25,810 nucleotides of DNA from a virus, in the IMG/VR virus record IMGVR_UViG_3300036770_000716, positions 1 through 25,810 of that record. The stretch is one strand, 5' to 3'. A program made the translations under genes and the position numbers. This document shows, piece by piece, positions 12,713 to 25,708 of the stretch (positions are counted from its first letter, which is position 1; the number at the start of each line of letters is the position of its first letter). The notes below the pieces were generated by a model. The model saw only the letters and a program-made list of their open reading frames with translations, made no database searches and was not told where the DNA came from.

Positions 12713-12732
12713 TTTGCAACACATGTAGCAAA
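12713..12732 (+). repeat. 20-bp palindromic element, copy 1 (centre CA)
   Basis: TTTGCAACACATGTAGCAAA. The arms TTTGCAACA and TGTAGCAAA pair except for one A:A position. It lies 18 bases before the ATG of the gene at 12751 and next to its ribosome site. Four more copies occur at 13200, 13443, 14745 and (inverted) 16276, differing only in the middle two bases. Likely a binding site for a dimeric protein; the AACAnnTGTA core is close to TACAnnTGTA sites of BlaI/CopY-type repressors, which is an analogy only. Confidence 0.8.
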
Positions 12733-13442: not shown

Positions 13443-13462
13443 TTTGCAACAGATGTAGCAAA
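13443..13462 (+). repeat. 20-bp palindromic element, copy 3 (centre GA)
   Basis: TTTGCAACAGATGTAGCAAA, two bases after the stop of the 55-aa gene and at the left edge of the non-coding region that carries the TGGAC repeats. No gene starts within 370 bases downstream. Confidence 0.8.
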
Positions 13463-13463
13463 C

Positions 13464-13510
13464 CCCCTCCTTGCTTTGCGTATCACAAACTTACTGGCAG
13501 TAAGGAGGGG
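13464..13510. other. Long inverted repeat with nested palindrome
   Basis: 9-bp arms CCCCTCCTT (13464-13472) and AAGGAGGGG (13502-13510). The loop contains TTACTGGCAGTAA, itself a palindrome with a one-base centre that ends in the right arm. GGGTC-AAAAAA-GACCC follows. The structure could be a cruciform or RNA fold next to the candidate origin, or a termination structure for the preceding short gene. Confidence 0.5.
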
Positions 13511-13524
13511 TCAAAAAAGACCCT

Positions 13525-13840
13525 CGGACAAATGTCCACCACTTTTGGGTTTTGTCCACCACACTGGACACGCGCAAACGGCTTGCCGCTGTCCTGCGTC
13601 CACCAAAGCGTCTACTACTACTACTAAAAATAATTTTATATATGTATGTATGGAGGGGTGTACAAGTGGACACATCCGCGTCTGGAAAATTTTTACCTCA
13701 GCCTTCCCTGTTTTTGTTTTTAATTTTTGTGGGTATGGTGTACGCAATCCGCTCAAACTGCGATACTATGCGGGTTCTACGCTGTCACGACGCGTGGACA
13801 TTTCCCAAAAACCCTGGACGCACTGGACACAAATATGGAC
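13525..13840. other. Candidate replication origin: TGGAC repeats and AT-rich block
   Basis: Within about 315 bases the pentamer TGGAC or its complement occurs nine times (13534, 13554, 13565, 13598, 13667, 13795, 13815, 13824, 13836), mostly as TGGACA(C) or GTGTCCA-like forms in both orientations; fewer than one is expected by chance. Between the clusters lies an AT-rich stretch (13617-13650) with TTTTATATATG. Iterated sites plus an easily melted region are the usual look of a phage origin. The last copy is the start codon region of the gene at 13835. No gene is otherwise seen in 13463-13834. Confidence 0.5.
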
Positions 13841-14617
13841 ATTCACATCTGCACGACCTGTAATGAGTCAAAACCACGGGCGGATTTCACCCGCCTAGCC
13901 ACCCTTGCGCAAACCCGCTCGTGGCTCCGAAACCCCAACGCACAACGCCGCCTCACCTATCACGGCGCAGAGTGCAACGCCTGCTTCAACAAATCCAAGA
14001 GAACCCCGCTCGATATGTCGCCCTCAGAGTACGCTCGGCGGCTGAAGAAGGAGGGCAAGAGCCAGCACTACATCGATCTATTTGTCGCAGACCGTGTGGC
14101 CCACGGTAAGAAGCGCGCCTCTGCCGCAGGCATCAAAGGTATTCAGGTTCGGCAGGCGCCCATGTACAAGGCGATCTGCGATTCTCTCAGTGAGTTAATA
14201 GAAAAGCTAAGGCAACGCTACAACTACATGCAACGCACCCACGGCGACAAGGGGGCGCTGGCGTTCCTCGACTTCGCGCTTGCCCAGGCCATGCTGGTGC
14301 GTATGTCGGTCAAGGAGAAGTACCGCAAAGGTGGGTTCATGCCCGACTCGTGGCAGGAGTATGTGACCGATGACGCGCGGGAGGAACTACACAAACTCTT
14401 CGACACCATAGACCCGCTCTTACGCAGTCGGTTCGACACCTTCCTAATAGAGTTTGAGTACCAGTTGACGAACCCTTCTTCTAAACAAGTTAAGGATATC
14501 GTTGACCGATGGGCCGAGGCCAAAGGTGCGTTGACGCCTGACGATATGCCCAGGCGACCGCCTGAAGAACCCAAACCAGAACCACCGGCGTGGATGTTGT
14601 TCCCCTCACGCTCTTAA
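13835..14617 (+). CDS. Zinc-finger-like hypothetical protein, 260 aa
   Basis: Begins MDIHICTTCNESKPRADF, with C6/C9 and C47/C50 (ECNACF) forming a likely four-cysteine zinc site. The rest is helical and charged (NYMQRTHGDKGALAFLDFAL, then EELHKLFDTIDPLLRSRF), ending in a Pro/Glu-rich tail. The ATG at 13835 is chosen because the cysteine motif follows at once; an open frame to 13727 adds residues encoded by the TGGAC repeat region and has no ribosome site, but 13835 also has a poor one. Being next to the repeat array it may be an origin-binding or replication-related protein; that is inference, no replication motif is seen. Confidence 0.75.
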   Translation: MDIHICTTCNESKPRADFTRLATLAQTRSWLRNPNAQRRLTYHGAECNACFNKSKRTPLDMSPSEYARRLKKEGKSQHYIDLFVADRVAHGKKRASAAGIKGIQVRQAPMYKAICDSLSELIEKLRQRYNYMQRTHGDKGALAFLDFALAQAMLVRMSVKEKYRKGGFMPDSWQEYVTDDAREELHKLFDTIDPLLRSRFDTFLIEFEYQLTNPSSKQVKDIVDRWAEAKGALTPDDMPRRPPEEPKPEPPAWMLFPSRS

Positions 14618-15337: not shown

Positions 15338-15520
15338 ATGAGTGAGATTTGGTATGTCAACGACGGCAACGGTGGGTTCCACTGGGTTGACCATGTGTTT
15401 GAAACAAAGATAGAAGCAGAGCGCTATGCACGGGAGTGTTTTCCCGATGAGAGTGAGGACGAGCGGTACGCCCGTATCCATTGCAAACCAGTAGTTTCTT
15501 ACAAGGAGGTGCAGTCATGA
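15338..15520 (+). CDS. Small hypothetical protein, 60 aa
   Basis: ATG at 15338 with GGGGGTGTGAG before it. Residues include IWYVNDGNGGFHWVDHVFET and KIEAERYARECFPDE, giving a strand-rich start and an acidic helix. No family recognised. It overlaps the next gene by 4 bases (ATGA) and carries that gene's AAGGAGGTG site. Confidence 0.7.
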   Translation: MSEIWYVNDGNGGFHWVDHVFETKIEAERYARECFPDESEDERYARIHCKPVVSYKEVQS

Positions 15521-15858
15521 AAACGAATGAACTACACGGGCCAGCCCTTGATTGGGCGGTGGCGAAGTGTGAGGGGGTGTATACCCCGAGCGTGGATACC
15601 GATATTGACGGGACAAAGCGCATCAACTACGGTGGGATGTATCCCGAATGGTCAACCGATTGGGCGCAAGGTGGGCCGATTATTGAGCGGGAGGGGATTG
15701 GGGTGTTCAAGTATTCAAGCGGTCCAGAATGGAATGCCCGGACAACGGTTTACCCGCCCAAATACGTTAAAGGCCCAACACCCCTGATCGCAGCAATGCG
15801 GTGCTATGTCGCAAGCAAACTTGGAGACGAGGTAGAGATACCGGAGGAATTGAAATGA
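15517..15858 (+). CDS. DUF2591 / NinX-like protein, 113 aa
   Basis: The N-terminus ELHGPALDWAVAKCEG, the middle STDWAQGGPIIEREGI and the C-terminal PTPLIAAMRCYVASKLGDEV are the three conserved blocks of the DUF2591 family (NinX-like), widespread in phages, of unknown function. Length is normal. The ATG at 15517 has AAGGAGGTG upstream and overlaps the preceding stop; the longer frame from 15481 is not needed. In lambdoid phages such genes lie in the early/nin region, which agrees with an early role here. Confidence 0.9.
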   Translation: MKTNELHGPALDWAVAKCEGVYTPSVDTDIDGTKRINYGGMYPEWSTDWAQGGPIIEREGIGVFKYSSGPEWNARTTVYPPKYVKGPTPLIAAMRCYVASKLGDEVEIPEELK

Positions 15859-16240: not shown

Positions 16241-18019
16241 ATGGACATCATGTCTAAAATAGATTCCAAAGATGCTTTGCTACAAGTGTTGCAAACCGCT
16301 ACCACTGACGAGTACTGCCACTTCATACGCATATGTAATCTGTACGACGACGGCGGTATGCGCAACGAACCTGGCGGTGGCAAGTTGATCCACGAAATAC
16401 AGGTCGACGGCGAGCCGGTGTTCGGCGCTGACGCACCGAGGTTCAACGGGTATGACTTCGCAAGCAAACTCAGCGAGGCGTATCAGTCTGGCTCAGACAT
16501 CAACGACAGCGGCGAGAGGTCGGCGTTTCGTATCGCTAACACCATTGCGTATATGCGTGAGGCGATGCCTGAGTCTGCGTTCTGGGTGTGGCGTGAGAAC
16601 GCACGCTTTGTGATGGAGTACTACAAACCACCTGCGTTTCTCGCAACGCTACGCAAGATAGGCAAGGACAACCCGCACCTGTGGTGGCACTTCCCACACA
16701 TATCAACCGAAGACCCCACGATGGTGGCCTACACCCCATCGCCTGAGTACGGCAAGCGTGACCGTCAGGTGCGCACAAAGGTCGGTCGCTACCTCACACA
16801 GTTCTACGGTGAGACGCTGACACAAAACCAGATCCGCTCTCTTGCCGATGGCGTCAAGCAGTTGGACTTCCATATGTCCAAGGATGCGGATGATTTCGAG
16901 GCTATCTACAGTATCCGTGAGGATGAGTGTGGGCTGGCCTCGTGTATGCAGGGCGATGTGTACTCGTTCGACAGTGACATACATCCAGCGCGGGTCTATG
17001 CGTCTGGCGACTTTGCACTAGCGTGGCTGACTGACCGCGTGATGAACGACCGTGTGGTGGCGCGTGCCATCGTTGCGTTTCCTGATGATCCTGCCAAGGC
17101 ACACTTCGTTCGCGTCTACGGTGATGAGTCCAACGCGTTGCTCGATATGTTGGTGGAGCGTGACTACCGGCGAGAGTCTGTGTACCAATACGACCCACGC
17201 CTGCTTGTGGTTGAGCACGACGACGGGCAGTATGTCATGCCCTACATCGATGGCAATGACAAGCATGTGAGCATACATAGGATCGATGGCAGGCGGTACT
17301 GGCTCGTTGCCAACTCCGACGGTGAACACAAGAGCAGTGCCACCAATACCAACGGGCTGACGGAGCGCATGGGTGGCAGGTGCGAGGTGTGTGGTGACTA
17401 CACAGAGGAGGACGAGGACGATATGCCCTACTCTGACTACCACGGCATACGCATCGGCAGATGTTGCACTGATCAATACCTGTGGGCACACTCACGGCGT
17501 GGCAACGAAGACCATATCGAGAGCGACTCATGCGTGTACTGCGAGACCGATGGCGAGTATTACCACGACCAGTACCTTGACTACTACGACATCGTGTACT
17601 GCGAGCATGACGGTGACTATCGGCATATCGATGAGTGCGTGCAAGACCCCAGCGGCAATTGGATGCGTACCGACGACGCCATCGAGGTGATCAACAATGC
17701 CGAGGGTCAGGTGTACTTCCACGAGTCAGACGCAGACAGTGCGGTGGGTGTCGTAGTGGTTGCGCCTGATACTGTCGAGGGGTTCCCCTACCAGACAATC
17801 GTGTGGGCTGATGACATGCCGGAGTTGTTTGCCGAGGCGTATCTCAACGCACCACGGTTCACGGATGACTACGGCAACGAGCGTGTCGTTGGCTTCGTTA
17901 CCCTGCGGGATCTCGTGCGTTCGTATGGTGACATGGAGGGTGCATCCAAAGCGTTCCGTTATATGACCAACTTCCGTACGCATTTCTTCTACCACGCCAC
18001 CTTTCAGGCATTGCGCTAA
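16241..18019 (+). CDS. Large hypothetical protein with cysteine-rich domain, 592 aa
   Basis: ATG at 16241 with AAGGAGAACAAC upstream. Middle part (about 215-280) has ECGLASCMQGDVYSFDSD, then HPARVYASGDFALAWL. I recognise the SCM plus P.RVYA..D.ALA pattern from phage hypothetical proteins of unknown role. From C381 there are several CxxC pairs (C381/C384, CC near 409-410, C432/C435, then others near 455 and 470) in an acidic, Tyr/His-rich context; this looks like two or more zinc-binding units. The C-terminal part has VGFVTLRDLVRSYGD. No catalytic motif is recognised. The fifth 20-bp palindrome lies within its codons 12-19. Large and probably early. Confidence 0.85.
   Translation: MDIMSKIDSKDALLQVLQTATTDEYCHFIRICNLYDDGGMRNEPGGGKLIHEIQVDGEPVFGADAPRFNGYDFASKLSEAYQSGSDINDSGERSAFRIANTIAYMREAMPESAFWVWRENARFVMEYYKPPAFLATLRKIGKDNPHLWWHFPHISTEDPTMVAYTPSPEYGKRDRQVRTKVGRYLTQFYGETLTQNQIRSLADGVKQLDFHMSKDADDFEAIYSIREDECGLASCMQGDVYSFDSDIHPARVYASGDFALAWLTDRVMNDRVVARAIVAFPDDPAKAHFVRVYGDESNALLDMLVERDYRRESVYQYDPRLLVVEHDDGQYVMPYIDGNDKHVSIHRIDGRRYWLVANSDGEHKSSATNTNGLTERMGGRCEVCGDYTEEDEDDMPYSDYHGIRIGRCCTDQYLWAHSRRGNEDHIESDSCVYCETDGEYYHDQYLDYYDIVYCEHDGDYRHIDECVQDPSGNWMRTDDAIEVINNAEGQVYFHESDADSAVGVVVVAPDTVEGFPYQTIVWADDMPELFAEAYLNAPRFTDDYGNERVVGFVTLRDLVRSYGDMEGASKAFRYMTNFRTHFFYHATFQALR
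16276..16295 (-). repeat. 20-bp palindromic element, copy 5 (inverted, centre CT)
   Basis: On the plus strand TTTGCTACAAGTGTTGCAAA; its complement TTTGCAACACTTGTAGCAAA matches the other four copies outside the central pair. It is inside the 5' end of the 592-aa gene, about 35 bases after the start codon, and is the only copy in this orientation. Confidence 0.8.
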
Positions 18020-22877: not shown

Positions 22878-23180
22878 ATGAGACCGATTCGTGTAATAGA
22901 TTTACAAAAACAGTATAACGTTGACCTTGTATGCGTAGGGGTGTTGGATGTGCTCAGTGATTTCCAGGGCATGATCCCCACGCAGAAACTTATCGACGCC
23001 TGCCACCATGACAAGATCTCTACACCTGCCACCACGCACAAGAAGATTGCCGCGTTAAAGGCAAAGAAGTGGATCAAAGAAACCAAGAACCCGCAGGACA
23101 ACGACGGGCGTAAGTGTTTCATCATGCTGACCCAGGCGGGTATGGACTTTCTCAAAGCATGGGAGGGCGCTAAACAATGA
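22878..23180 (+). CDS. Winged-helix DNA-binding protein, 100 aa
   Basis: ATG at 22878 with TAAGGAGTGAGT upstream; a start two codons earlier is possible. Segments MIPTQKLIDACHHDKISTPA and TTHKKIAALKAKKWIKE form a helix-turn-helix with a following wing DNDGRKCFIMLTQAG, as in MarR-type wHTH proteins, but with only about 100 residues and no clear dimerisation helices on both ends. Probably a phage transcription regulator. It overlaps the next gene by 4 bases (ATGA). Confidence 0.75.
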   Translation: MRPIRVIDLQKQYNVDLVCVGVLDVLSDFQGMIPTQKLIDACHHDKISTPATTHKKIAALKAKKWIKETKNPQDNDGRKCFIMLTQAGMDFLKAWEGAKQ

Positions 23181-23368
23181 CCGTAAAAGAGAAACTGCAA
23201 CGTTACTTGGCACAACGCAAGACACCCTTGACAGTTACCCAGATCGCAGAACGTATGGCGTGCCACAAAAGCACAGCCCTGCATGCGATGAACGAACTCA
23301 TAAAAGAGGGCGTGGCAAAGGAGGTCTTCGTTGCTGTCAAGAACAAATACGTAAAGGGGATCATATGA
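23177..23368 (+). CDS. Small winged-helix protein, 63 aa
   Basis: The core (LTVTQIAERMACHKSTALHA, then MNELIKEGVAKEV) is a plain HTH plus wing of the replication/transcription-factor type. Starts in overlap with the upstream HTH gene (ATGA) and its own stop overlaps the Rap1a/Tai-like gene. It may act with its neighbour in a regulatory cascade, inferred from adjacency. Confidence 0.75.
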   Translation: MTVKEKLQRYLAQRKTPLTVTQIAERMACHKSTALHAMNELIKEGVAKEVFVAVKNKYVKGII

Positions 23369-23697
23369 GAAAGCTACTATTGAGTTTGTTGTTCGTACCA
23401 GCGATGGCGAGTGCAGGGTTCCACACCGGCAATGAACTGTACTCTGACCTTCTTAGCGAGAGCACTAGCAAACGCATGTATGGGTTGGGCTATCTGGCTG
23501 GCCTTGCAGACTATGGTGACAGTGTGTCGCACTGCATACCGTCTAATGTCACGCTAGGGCAGATACAGGACATGGCAATCGACTACCTACGCAGGAACGC
23601 TGAAAACCGCAACCTGCCTGCTGACATTCTCGTGGGCATGATGTTGATAGAACGCTGGCCTTGCAAGAATAAGTCGAAAGGGGGGAAGGGCGCATGA
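23365..23697 (+). CDS. Rap1a/Tai immunity-like exported protein, 110 aa
   Basis: A signal peptide is clear: basic RK, hydrophobic LLLSLLFVPAM and a cleavage site after ASA at 17. The mature part has the family pattern: GNELYSDLL, GLGYLAGLADY, C57 in HCIPSNVTLGQIQDM and C100 in RWPC. Rap1a/Tai proteins bind type VI secreted amidases in the periplasm and give self-immunity; many phages carry homologues of unknown role. The N-terminal cysteine often seen after GN.LY is serine here. The ATG overlaps the HTH stop. Periplasmic location is predicted. Confidence 0.85.
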   Translation: MRKLLLSLLFVPAMASAGFHTGNELYSDLLSESTSKRMYGLGYLAGLADYGDSVSHCIPSNVTLGQIQDMAIDYLRRNAENRNLPADILVGMMLIERWPCKNKSKGGKGA

Positions 23698-23978
23698 CTA
23701 CCATCAAGGAGTATGCCAAGAAAAGAAAAATCTCTGAGCGAACCGCCCGTAAACAGTTAGAGCGTCTGGTTGCCTTGGGTGAATTGGCGCGGCAGAAAGG
23801 ATCAGGTAATGCGTATATCTACTACGAACCAAAGTACGAGCACCGAAACTGGCACGACCCGTTCAACAAGACGCTTAAGGTGGCACGATCCCTTCAGAAA
23901 AACGAAGGGCAGGGTGCCGAGGTTGTGGAGGAATCCGGGCACGTATCAGACCCGGAAGAAGTGGCCTCTCATGCCTAG
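23694..23978 (+). CDS. Small winged-helix protein, 94 aa
   Basis: The N-terminal half, TIKEYAKKRKISERTARKQL then ERLVALGELARQKG with SGNAYIYYEP, is a helix-turn-helix with wing, similar to phage HTH regulators. The second half is polar and ends in acidic residues. ATG overlaps the preceding stop (ATGA). The last 8 bases are shared with the next gene. Confidence 0.75.
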   Translation: MTTIKEYAKKRKISERTARKQLERLVALGELARQKGSGNAYIYYEPKYEHRNWHDPFNKTLKVARSLQKNEGQGAEVVEESGHVSDPEEVASHA

Positions 23979-24198
23979 GCAAGCGTTAATCCTACATCTG
24001 TACAACATAGGCCTAGAGACGCATGAGGTAGCGGAGATCGTGCAGGTAACAGTAGAGACGCTACGTAAGCACATGGCGAGGATTTACTACAAGTTTGGTG
24101 TCCATGACCGTGGGGCGGCTATTAGAAAGATGTTGTGGCACAACCGTAAACCCAAAACCGAGGACTGTAAACTTAAGACCGAGGCACTAGAAACTTAA
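23971..24198 (+). CDS. LuxR/GerE-type helix-turn-helix protein, 75 aa
   Basis: The block ILHLYNIGLETHEVAEIVQV with VTVETLRKHMARIYYKFGVH and a following RGAAIRKMLW matches the LuxR C-terminal HTH (EIA...V...TV..H...I..K.GV..R..A). Only the DNA-binding domain is present, without a receiver or ligand domain, as in small GerE-like regulators. The start at 23971 lies within the preceding gene. Together with the other HTH genes it forms a cluster of four DNA-binding proteins. Confidence 0.75.
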   Translation: MPRQALILHLYNIGLETHEVAEIVQVTVETLRKHMARIYYKFGVHDRGAAIRKMLWHNRKPKTEDCKLKTEALET

Positions 24199-24209: not shown

Positions 24210-24815
24210 ATGAGCATCGAGGCTATGAAGCAAGCATTAGAAGAGTTAAAACCTTTTGCAAGCACAGAAGTGTGGGATAAGTTACCGGCGAGTGCAAAGG
24301 TCGCAATGTTAAATATTGAAACCGCGCTATACAAAGCCATAGAGCAGGCAGAGAAGCAAGAGCCTGTGGCGTGGATTGTAGACGGAGGAATAAAAGTAAG
24401 GCTGGATATGGCGGGAAAACTGTATTACTCCGAAGCCAATGTTTATGCAGCACCTGTACACGCCAGCGACATATCGCAAGAACGTGTCGATGAAACGGCA
24501 AAAGGTAAACATGAGTGGGCCATGCAAAAAATGGTTGAGGAAAACGAAAGGTTAGGTTTGTATAACGAACCAGTTGCGTGGATCAAAAAGGAAGAACTAG
24601 CCTACATGTCAGCGGTTGTGGGGCTAGGCGGTATTGCATGGCAAACGAATCTCGGTCTCAAGCCCGAGGCTGGGGATGTGCCCCTCTACGTCGCACCACC
24701 AAAACGTGAATGGGTTGGGCTGGACAACGATATACCCAGCTTGGGTTTAGTTACCGAGGAGTTTTATAACGGGATGCTTTGTGCAGAAGACATATTGAGA
24801 AAGAGAAACACATGA
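24210..24815 (+). CDS. Hypothetical protein with EPVAW and WVGL repeats, 201 aa
   Basis: ATG at 24210 with AAAGGGGTGAG upstream. The sequence starts with a helix (MKQALEELKPFASTEVWDK), has EPVAWI twice (about 52 and 122) each followed by a short strand segment, and VPLYVAPPKREWVGL towards the end. I know this EPVAW...LY.APPKREWVGL layout from many phage hypotheticals of unknown function. It is the first of the C-terminal-sharing family in this cluster. The stop overlaps the next ATG (ATGA). Confidence 0.75.
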   Translation: MSIEAMKQALEELKPFASTEVWDKLPASAKVAMLNIETALYKAIEQAEKQEPVAWIVDGGIKVRLDMAGKLYYSEANVYAAPVHASDISQERVDETAKGKHEWAMQKMVEENERLGLYNEPVAWIKKEELAYMSAVVGLGGIAWQTNLGLKPEAGDVPLYVAPPKREWVGLDNDIPSLGLVTEEFYNGMLCAEDILRKRNT

Positions 24816-25087
24816 AAAAGATTACGGTCGTATGCCACAAAGACCATTTGCATGGCTACGAGGACTTTGAAGGTAAGTGCTTGTTGTGTGAAATGGAAAA
24901 ACTTTACGCTGAAATCAACCAAATCACCCATCAACTGTATGACTACCGAGCCGCCTTTATAAAAGCACGTGACCGTAAATGGGTTGGGCTGACACAAGCA
25001 GAGTTTGAAGAGACGGTTGATGGGTTAGATGATTTAGAAGACTGCTGGCAAGCCATCGAAGCAAAACTAAAGGAGAAGAACACATGA
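24812..25087 (+). CDS. Small protein with WVGLT / EAKLKEKN end, 91 aa
   Basis: The ATG at 24812 overlaps the previous stop; the longer frame from 24779 is not needed. N-terminal C8 and a CLLC pair at about 25-28 suggest a zinc site. The C-terminal half has RKWVGLTQAEFEE and ends EAKLKEKNT. The final codons carry AAAGGAGAAGAAC, the ribosome site for the next gene. Function unknown. The end is shared with the two following genes. Confidence 0.75.
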   Translation: MKKITVVCHKDHLHGYEDFEGKCLLCEMEKLYAEINQITHQLYDYRAAFIKARDRKWVGLTQAEFEETVDGLDDLEDCWQAIEAKLKEKNT

Positions 25088-25368
25088 AAAGATTTACTGC
25101 ATATCGAAGAGCCATAAGCCAACGTGACACGCACAACCACTATCAAAAGAATCCTGATGATGAACCACAATTTGAAGGTGTGATCTGGACTGACGGCACT
25201 GTGACTTTACGATGGCTTACTGCATGCACTTCACATTCGGTATGGGCGAACATTGAAGACTGCTTAAATATCCATGGGCACCCAGAATACGGCACCGAGA
25301 TTGTTTGGCATGACGGGCCTGCCCCGGAATGTTGGGAAGCAAAACTAAAGGAGAAGAACGGTGGCTAA
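25084..25368 (+). CDS. Small protein ending EAKLKEKNGG, 94 aa
   Basis: ATG at 25084 overlaps the previous stop (ATGA). The sequence starts MKRFTAYRRAISQRDTHN, has FEGVIWTDGTVTLRWLTAC in the middle, then HGHPEYGTEIVWHD and the shared EAKLKEKN end. The VIWTDGT..LRWLT segment followed by HGHPEYGTEIVWHD is a pattern I know from phage hypotheticals. No function known. Confidence 0.75.
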   Translation: MKRFTAYRRAISQRDTHNHYQKNPDDEPQFEGVIWTDGTVTLRWLTACTSHSVWANIEDCLNIHGHPEYGTEIVWHDGPAPECWEAKLKEKNGG

Positions 25369-25708
25369 ACCCATGACAAAAACCGAGTGGATGAACTGGG
25401 TTGAAGAGGCGTGGAACAAGGCCCAACAATCAGCGTGGGCAGAAAAAGGGCAGGAGTTTGAATGTGTTAAAGCAATTGATGTTGAAGCTGCGGCAGAGCA
25501 GTCCGACAACTATGCCGCTTTTCTTGCTGGCGTTAGGTTTGCAAGGGTTAATTTGCCCGCACCATCAAAAGAATGGGTTGGGCTGACGGATGAGGAGCGA
25601 GAACGAGTGCGTTCTAATGCTGGTTACAACCAATTTATGAGTGCTGGTGAATATGCAGAGCTTGTGCAACGGGCTACCGAAGCCAAACTAAAGGAGAAGA
25701 ACGCATGA
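25361..25708 (+). CDS. Small protein with WVGLT / EAKLKEKN end and GTG start, 115 aa
   Basis: GTG at 25361, overlapping the upstream gene by 8 bases, with AAAGGAGAAGAAC at good spacing; the ATG at 25373 is a possible alternative. Contains KTEWMNWVEEAWNKAQ, then KEWVGLTDEERERVRS and the ending RATEAKLKEKNA. Third member with the shared end. Function unknown. Confidence 0.7.
   Translation: MAKPMTKTEWMNWVEEAWNKAQQSAWAEKGQEFECVKAIDVEAAAEQSDNYAAFLAGVRFARVNLPAPSKEWVGLTDEERERVRSNAGYNQFMSAGEYAELVQRATEAKLKEKNA

Follow-up and report, generated by a model that had tools for sequence, protein, structure and literature searches.

Positions 13526-13840 of the window (the whole stretch of 25,810 nucleotides analyzed here) very probably contain the replication origin of a tailed phage, predicted from sequence to be of the SaPI/PICI working type, in which mirrored iterons flank an AT-rich melting region. 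That a candidate origin lies here, as the original prediction held, is well supported, since it survived both refuting tests named there: the repeats are kept in relatives, and 10 of 12 near-complete genomes have a GC-skew minimum nearby. At 25.8 kb the record covers part of a phage whose relatives are represented by contigs of 55-66 kb. Its virion genes (portal, terL and terS) run leftwards; from about 12.7 kb on, the early genes point right. The repeat cluster has a rightward gene on either side and lies 1.2 kb into the early region, and is therefore not itself the transcription switch, which is at terS. The features of the locus are as follows.

13443..13462, no strand: 20-base near-palindrome TTTGCAACA-NN-TGTAGCAAA at the left edge of the cluster, one of five copies in the window
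13526..13539, no strand: leftmost site GGACAAATGTCCAC, an iteron opposed, across a 2-base gap, by an incomplete copy on the opposite strand
13534..13559, no strand: outer left dyad arm with two iterons (minus strand, 13534 and 13554), pairing with 13794-13819
13565..13569, plus strand: iteron TGGAC (TGGACACGC)
13598..13602, minus strand: iteron GTCCAC adjoining the AT-rich core on the left, its position invariant in alignment A6
About 13621..13652, no strand: AT-rich core, the presumed melting region, recognized from its sequence and from a core at the same place in relatives
13667..13671, plus strand: iteron GTGGACA adjoining the core on the right; the dyad centre is at about 13676
13794..13819, no strand: outer right dyad arm with iterons 13795 and 13815 (plus strand), pairing with 13534-13559
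13824..13840, plus strand: last two iterons (13824 and 13836)
13835..14617, plus strand: fast-evolving adjacent gene encoding 260 amino acids, with a four-cysteine zinc ribbon and long helices

The nine TGGAC pentamers reported on both strands within about 315 bases were all found where they had been placed, within 13534-13840: three on the minus strand (13534, 13554 and 13598) and six on the plus strand (13565, 13667, 13795, 13815, 13824 and 13836). These nine are drawn from 41 copies in the whole window, fall within 1.2% of its length, and belong to a word that is scarcer than expected window-wide (41 versus 54.7). The density exceeds that of shuffled sequence, as TGGAC reached at most six per 315 bases in 100 dinucleotide shuffles; some 5-mer reached at least nine in eight of the 100. 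The longer word TGGACA occurs seven times in the cluster, a count that no 6-mer attained in 100 such shuffles. The AT-rich block said to lie between the copies is real, with three minus-strand and one plus-strand TGGAC to its left and five plus-strand copies to its right. The leftmost site has the form GGACA-WW-TGTCC, which also occurs in loci L179 and L008, and the ninth pentamer shares bases with the 13835 start codon (ATGGAC). The region had been described as free of genes, which holds insofar as no conserved gene lies there, although open reading frames are present. Used as a DNA query against the phage collection, the cluster region gave no match.

Recurrence of the repeats in related phages, originally proposed as a check on the origin, was borne out at the same place upstream of terS. 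Relatives were reached via the terminase, which gave 599 matches and 80 loci, and dozens of related phages have the layout in the corresponding position. In those with enough DNA upstream of terS, the AT-rich core mostly lies 1.2-2.4 kb from that gene, and in most the order is the core with iterons on both sides, then a gene of the 13835 family. Each of the 13835 homologues identified in eight of these loci has the same kind of cluster in front of it. The layout has two exceptions, L012 and L014, where another short gene follows the cluster. Many relatives have TGGACA as their iteron, and by eye we found the variants GTGGGTA, GGATA and GTGGGCCA in others. Two further viral contigs, L111 (4457-4830) and L126 (2665-2914), carry GTGGACA arrays mirrored around an AT-rich core and have no matches to the 13835 family or to other window proteins.

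The iterons are arranged in mirror image. Across 14 TGGACA loci, 27 copies to the left of the core are on the minus strand and 13 on the plus strand, versus 14 and 46 to the right (Fisher p 2e-5, with the loci pooled and partly related). Beyond the individual sites, the left and right flanks in relatives form long imperfect inverted repeats, with local scores of up to 79 where shuffle maxima are near 25 and most loci scoring far beyond their shuffles; several matched blocks within a locus share one centre, in most loci 26-64 bases to the right of the core. The centre of the window's arms, at an offset of +46, falls in the middle of that range, and its arm score at the clade's centre offset was reached by 2 of 300 shuffles; the window's dyad is weaker than that of most relatives. 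Four loci (L017, L018, L029 and L179) gave no clear dyad by local inverted-repeat score. In alignment A6 the arms co-vary at 0.135, where shuffles give 0.083 and none of 500 matches the observed value; sliding yields no more than 0.067. Both sides are changed in 15 pairs versus 10.2, and A7 and A8, of four sequences each, point in the same direction. Instead of selection for pairing, gene conversion between the arms may explain this. The dyad led us to consider a telomere-resolution site; the core is not a perfect palindrome.

The GC-skew check proposed for the origin gave a detrended cumulative minimum within 2.2 kb of the core (-2.1 to +1.1 kb) in 10 of 12 near-complete relatives; in the other two, G011 and G014, it was off by 6 and 9 kb. 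In four genomes the minimum is closer to terS than to the core, and gene orientation confounds the measure because transcription diverges only 1.2-1.6 kb away. Four-fold degenerate sites are likewise G-richer in genes pointing away from the core than in genes pointing towards it (10 of 12 genomes). The prevailing gene orientation is away from the core in any case, and the genomes are related to one another, so we take skew as supporting rather than decisive.

No known initiator had been seen in the original prediction, which is explained by the early end of the record: a better candidate, a DUF927 primase-helicase, lies past its end in relatives. The relatives' early operon encodes an A-family DNA polymerase, a PD-(D/E)XK exonuclease, an SNF2 helicase and the DUF927 protein (950-990 amino acids). 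The DUF927 gene is present in 20 of 38 related records, including nearly all the longer ones and the near-identical G032, where some 21 kb separate it from the origin on the downstream side, farther than the window record reaches. In an AF2 model, the protein's last 300 residues (mean pLDDT 73) follow a helix-helix-beta-hairpin order; the best PDB match is SCCmec Cch (Z 8.8, 228 residues aligned, at a high rmsd of 5.5), then SaPIbov1 Rep (Z 7.8, 193 aligned, at a high rmsd of 6.4), with the next best at Z 4.4. We consider this primase-helicase, known from relatives, the more likely main initiator. DUF927 helicases are about equally similar overall in phages with quite different iterons, and only their C-terminus tracks iteron type, weakly and for some clades, with G011 (TGGACA type) a misfit. 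GTGGACA arrays also stand directly behind Prim-Pol/DUF927/HTH_56 genes in the unrelated contigs L113 and L177, and directly behind AAA_25 helicase genes in two more, L115 and L149. An O-like initiator had no Pfam or PHROGs match among the proteins scanned, which were part of the gene set. Rhizobium phage RHph_TM3_14A and Pseudomonas phage Rollin also carry a DUF927 gene, but no TGGACA array was seen; in RHph_TM3_14A, non-coding DNA at 19.4-20.1 kb, close to where the early genes begin, is AT-rich. The early operon of RHph_TM3_14A lists DNA polymerase I, a RecB-type exonuclease and an SNF2 helicase, as do the window's relatives, and its DUF927 primase-helicase (L255, 42239-45322) carries the annotation 'putative integrase protein'.

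The gene at 13835 had itself been put forward as an adjacent candidate initiator. Its family does adjoin the examined iteron clusters of the clade nearly always (L012 and L014 excepted) and changes with the origin, but no initiator-like fold was matched. The four-cysteine N-terminal motif noticed earlier is indeed encoded (C-x2-C...C-x2-C), and the AF2 model of this basic protein (pI 9.4; mean pLDDT 90.8) has a zinc ribbon, then a helix of 59 residues and more helices. Compared with PDB and BFVD, the model had no significant match, the best rows being generic helical bundles; sequence searches of PDB and of the phage collection returned nothing, as did a first viral scan with this protein alone, and the family was reached via the terminase and then alignment A3. 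In four loci (L027, L028, L019 and L071) TGGACA is kept though the family protein has no zinc ribbon, which argues that the ribbon is not the TGGACA reader. An accessory or specificity factor of the origin is more likely than a main initiator, and is our best guess because the gene's position is constant and it changes together with the arms.

This joint change is most visible against G032 (65,038 bases), whose terS is 100% identical to that of the window, its terL and portal 99% and its p20314 99.7%, whereas the 13835 proteins are 35% identical, the second most divergent of 29 open reading frames. The non-coding DNA left of the origin is identical up to 13537, after which the outer left arm differs; 13563-13612 is nearly identical, and the right arm and the 13835 gene differ again. 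The left arm of G032, GTCCTGGGTTG, is by eye complementary to its own right arm, CAATCCCAGGAC. In other pairs with terL at least 98% identical, the 13835-family proteins are only 24-47% identical, and in L063/L072 and L050/L052 the sequences cease to resemble each other just left of the core and stay dissimilar into or through the gene, a pattern that looks like cassette exchange. Judging from these alignments, a cassette of core and 13835 gene is exchanged between phages otherwise up to 99% identical. Controlled for terL, arms and 13835 protein show a positive partial correlation (0.35 for the left arm) that linkage may explain. A tentative reading, which we regard as possible though rather doubtful, is that arms and protein form a replication-specificity cassette: the arms would match each other, through cruciform pairing or through one protein holding both, the protein would read the arms, and phages would exchange the cassette or evolve it anew, thereby evading competition between origins or replication parasites. 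Such replacement between phages of one kind may be likened to plasmids changing incompatibility group.

As a mechanism, we propose that the winged-helix-like C-terminal domain of the DUF927 protein would bind the AAGTGGACA iterons to the left and right of the core, probably in the form of two rings. The AT-rich core would then melt, the rings would load and move apart, and primers would come from the primase part, with the A-family DNA polymerase of the phage itself taking over. The assignment of sites to proteins is our inference here. With less confidence, we suggest that the 13835 protein may bind the fast-changing arms or help their pairing, giving origin-specific recognition, and that the complex may shut off the 13835 gene through the iterons close to and overlapping the start codon.

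A transcriptional control region, with TGGACA as operators of an early-operon repressor or activator and the AT-rich core as promoter DNA, would account for the long plus-strand operon downstream, the iteron on the 13835 start codon, the operator-like palindromes nearby and the sigma-70-like boxes noticed by eye in the right half of some relatives. We nevertheless hold it improbable, given that 13500-13840 has no sigma-70 match, that the sites lie on both sides of the core around a common dyad centre, unlike an upstream operator, that unrelated phages carry arrays of this motif behind helicase genes, and that the transcription switch is 1.2 kb away, at terS. The region may control the 13835 gene in addition to its predicted role as an origin.

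Packaging sites are often near terS and can contain repeats, and in the examined loci terS starts 1.2-2.4 kb away. Still, a pac or cos site read by the small terminase subunit is very improbable, as two genes intervene between the element and terS, the iteron adjoins primase-helicases elsewhere, and terS is fully identical in the window and G032, yet the arms and adjacent gene differ. We give scarcely any credence to the dyad being a structured RNA made from the region. The complementary arms co-vary, as a stem would, but their mismatches (33 G-U, 63 A-C and 168 others) show no G-U excess on either strand given the base make-up of the arms, which argues for DNA symmetry over an RNA stem; moreover, the region has no Rfam match and the iterons are located within the arms.

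The origin thus predicted resembles those of SaPIs and PICIs, where an AT-rich region lies between two sets of short iterons, as is always so in E. coli PICIs (PMC6092414). PMC7581432 describes DUF927 helicases such as SCCmec Cch as relatives of SaPIbov1 Rep, a self-loading initiator, with SaPI Rep recognizing iterons through its C-terminal domain; the initiator candidate here appears to be of this class, its modeled C-terminal fold matching at high rmsd. Unlike those elements, the present origin belongs to a complete phage with its own DNA polymerase, and terminase and portal are present, where a satellite would lack the virion gene set. It also has additional dyad arms and an additional fast-evolving adjacent protein, and some 21 kb separate it from the helicase gene, which SaPIs place directly beside the origin; the arrays of L113 and L177 do lie directly downstream of such a gene, unlike that of G032. 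The predicted origin would be of the DUF927 iteron kind, lacking one usual trait, position beside the helicase gene, but would work like one.

Other systems share single traits. SCCmec Cch carries DUF927, and Cch2, of another helicase family with a similar role, needs the iteron AAGTG, comparable to AAGTGGACA here; SCCmec origins differ in having three iterons in a short intergenic stretch, and mirrored arms like ours are not described for the putative Cch and Cch2 origins in the sections of the source available (PMC7581432). In phage P4 (alpha/ori/crr), a primase-helicase winged helix binds origin repeats, as proposed here (PMC4234260), although alpha has a Toprim-type primase. The stem-loop origin of plasmid pRN1 likewise keeps symmetry with its sequence not conserved (PMC4234260); it differs in being a stem-loop of about 100 bases, lacking iterons, directly downstream of the replication gene. 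Lambda-type origins (O protein) have their iterons inside the initiator gene, whereas here they are in DNA with no conserved gene. Herpesvirus oriL has mirror-image initiator sites around an AT-rich spacer; its proteins are unrelated, so the likeness is one of layout alone.

With this prediction, the SaPI/PICI type of iteron origin, hitherto known mainly from satellites and islands, would also belong to autonomous uncultivated phages, a large group whose assembled relatives number in the hundreds and which now has a concrete candidate origin. The change of both arms together with the neighboring gene makes a gain of origin specificity testable, and asks whether parasites drive it.

Several elements near the origin drew our attention. 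The near-palindrome TTTGCAACA-NN-TGTAGCAAA occurs at 12713, 13200, 13443 and 14745 (plus strand) and at 16276 (minus strand), exact save for the two middle bases and all within 3.6 kb around the origin. G032 likewise has exactly five near-palindromes, one of which apparently encodes the second CxxC of its zinc ribbon, and relatives have similar elements, TTTGGGACA-NN-TGTCCCAAA. The near-palindrome is possibly an operator of a phage repressor; candidates for its regulator are the run of helix-turn-helix genes at 22881-24198, with an IclR-like gene at 23177, a GerE/LuxR-type match in 23770-24198, and weak helix-turn-helix matches at 22881 and 23694. As to the host, a terminase scan of genomes returned only three metagenome-assembled contigs, of discordant taxa. 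The gene at 15517-15858 encodes a homologue of phage P22 NinX. Adjoining small genes at 24210-25708 have common C-terminal words (WVGLT and EAKLKEKN, for example) and short repeated DNA, and look like a shuffled set of paralogues that differs between the window and G032.
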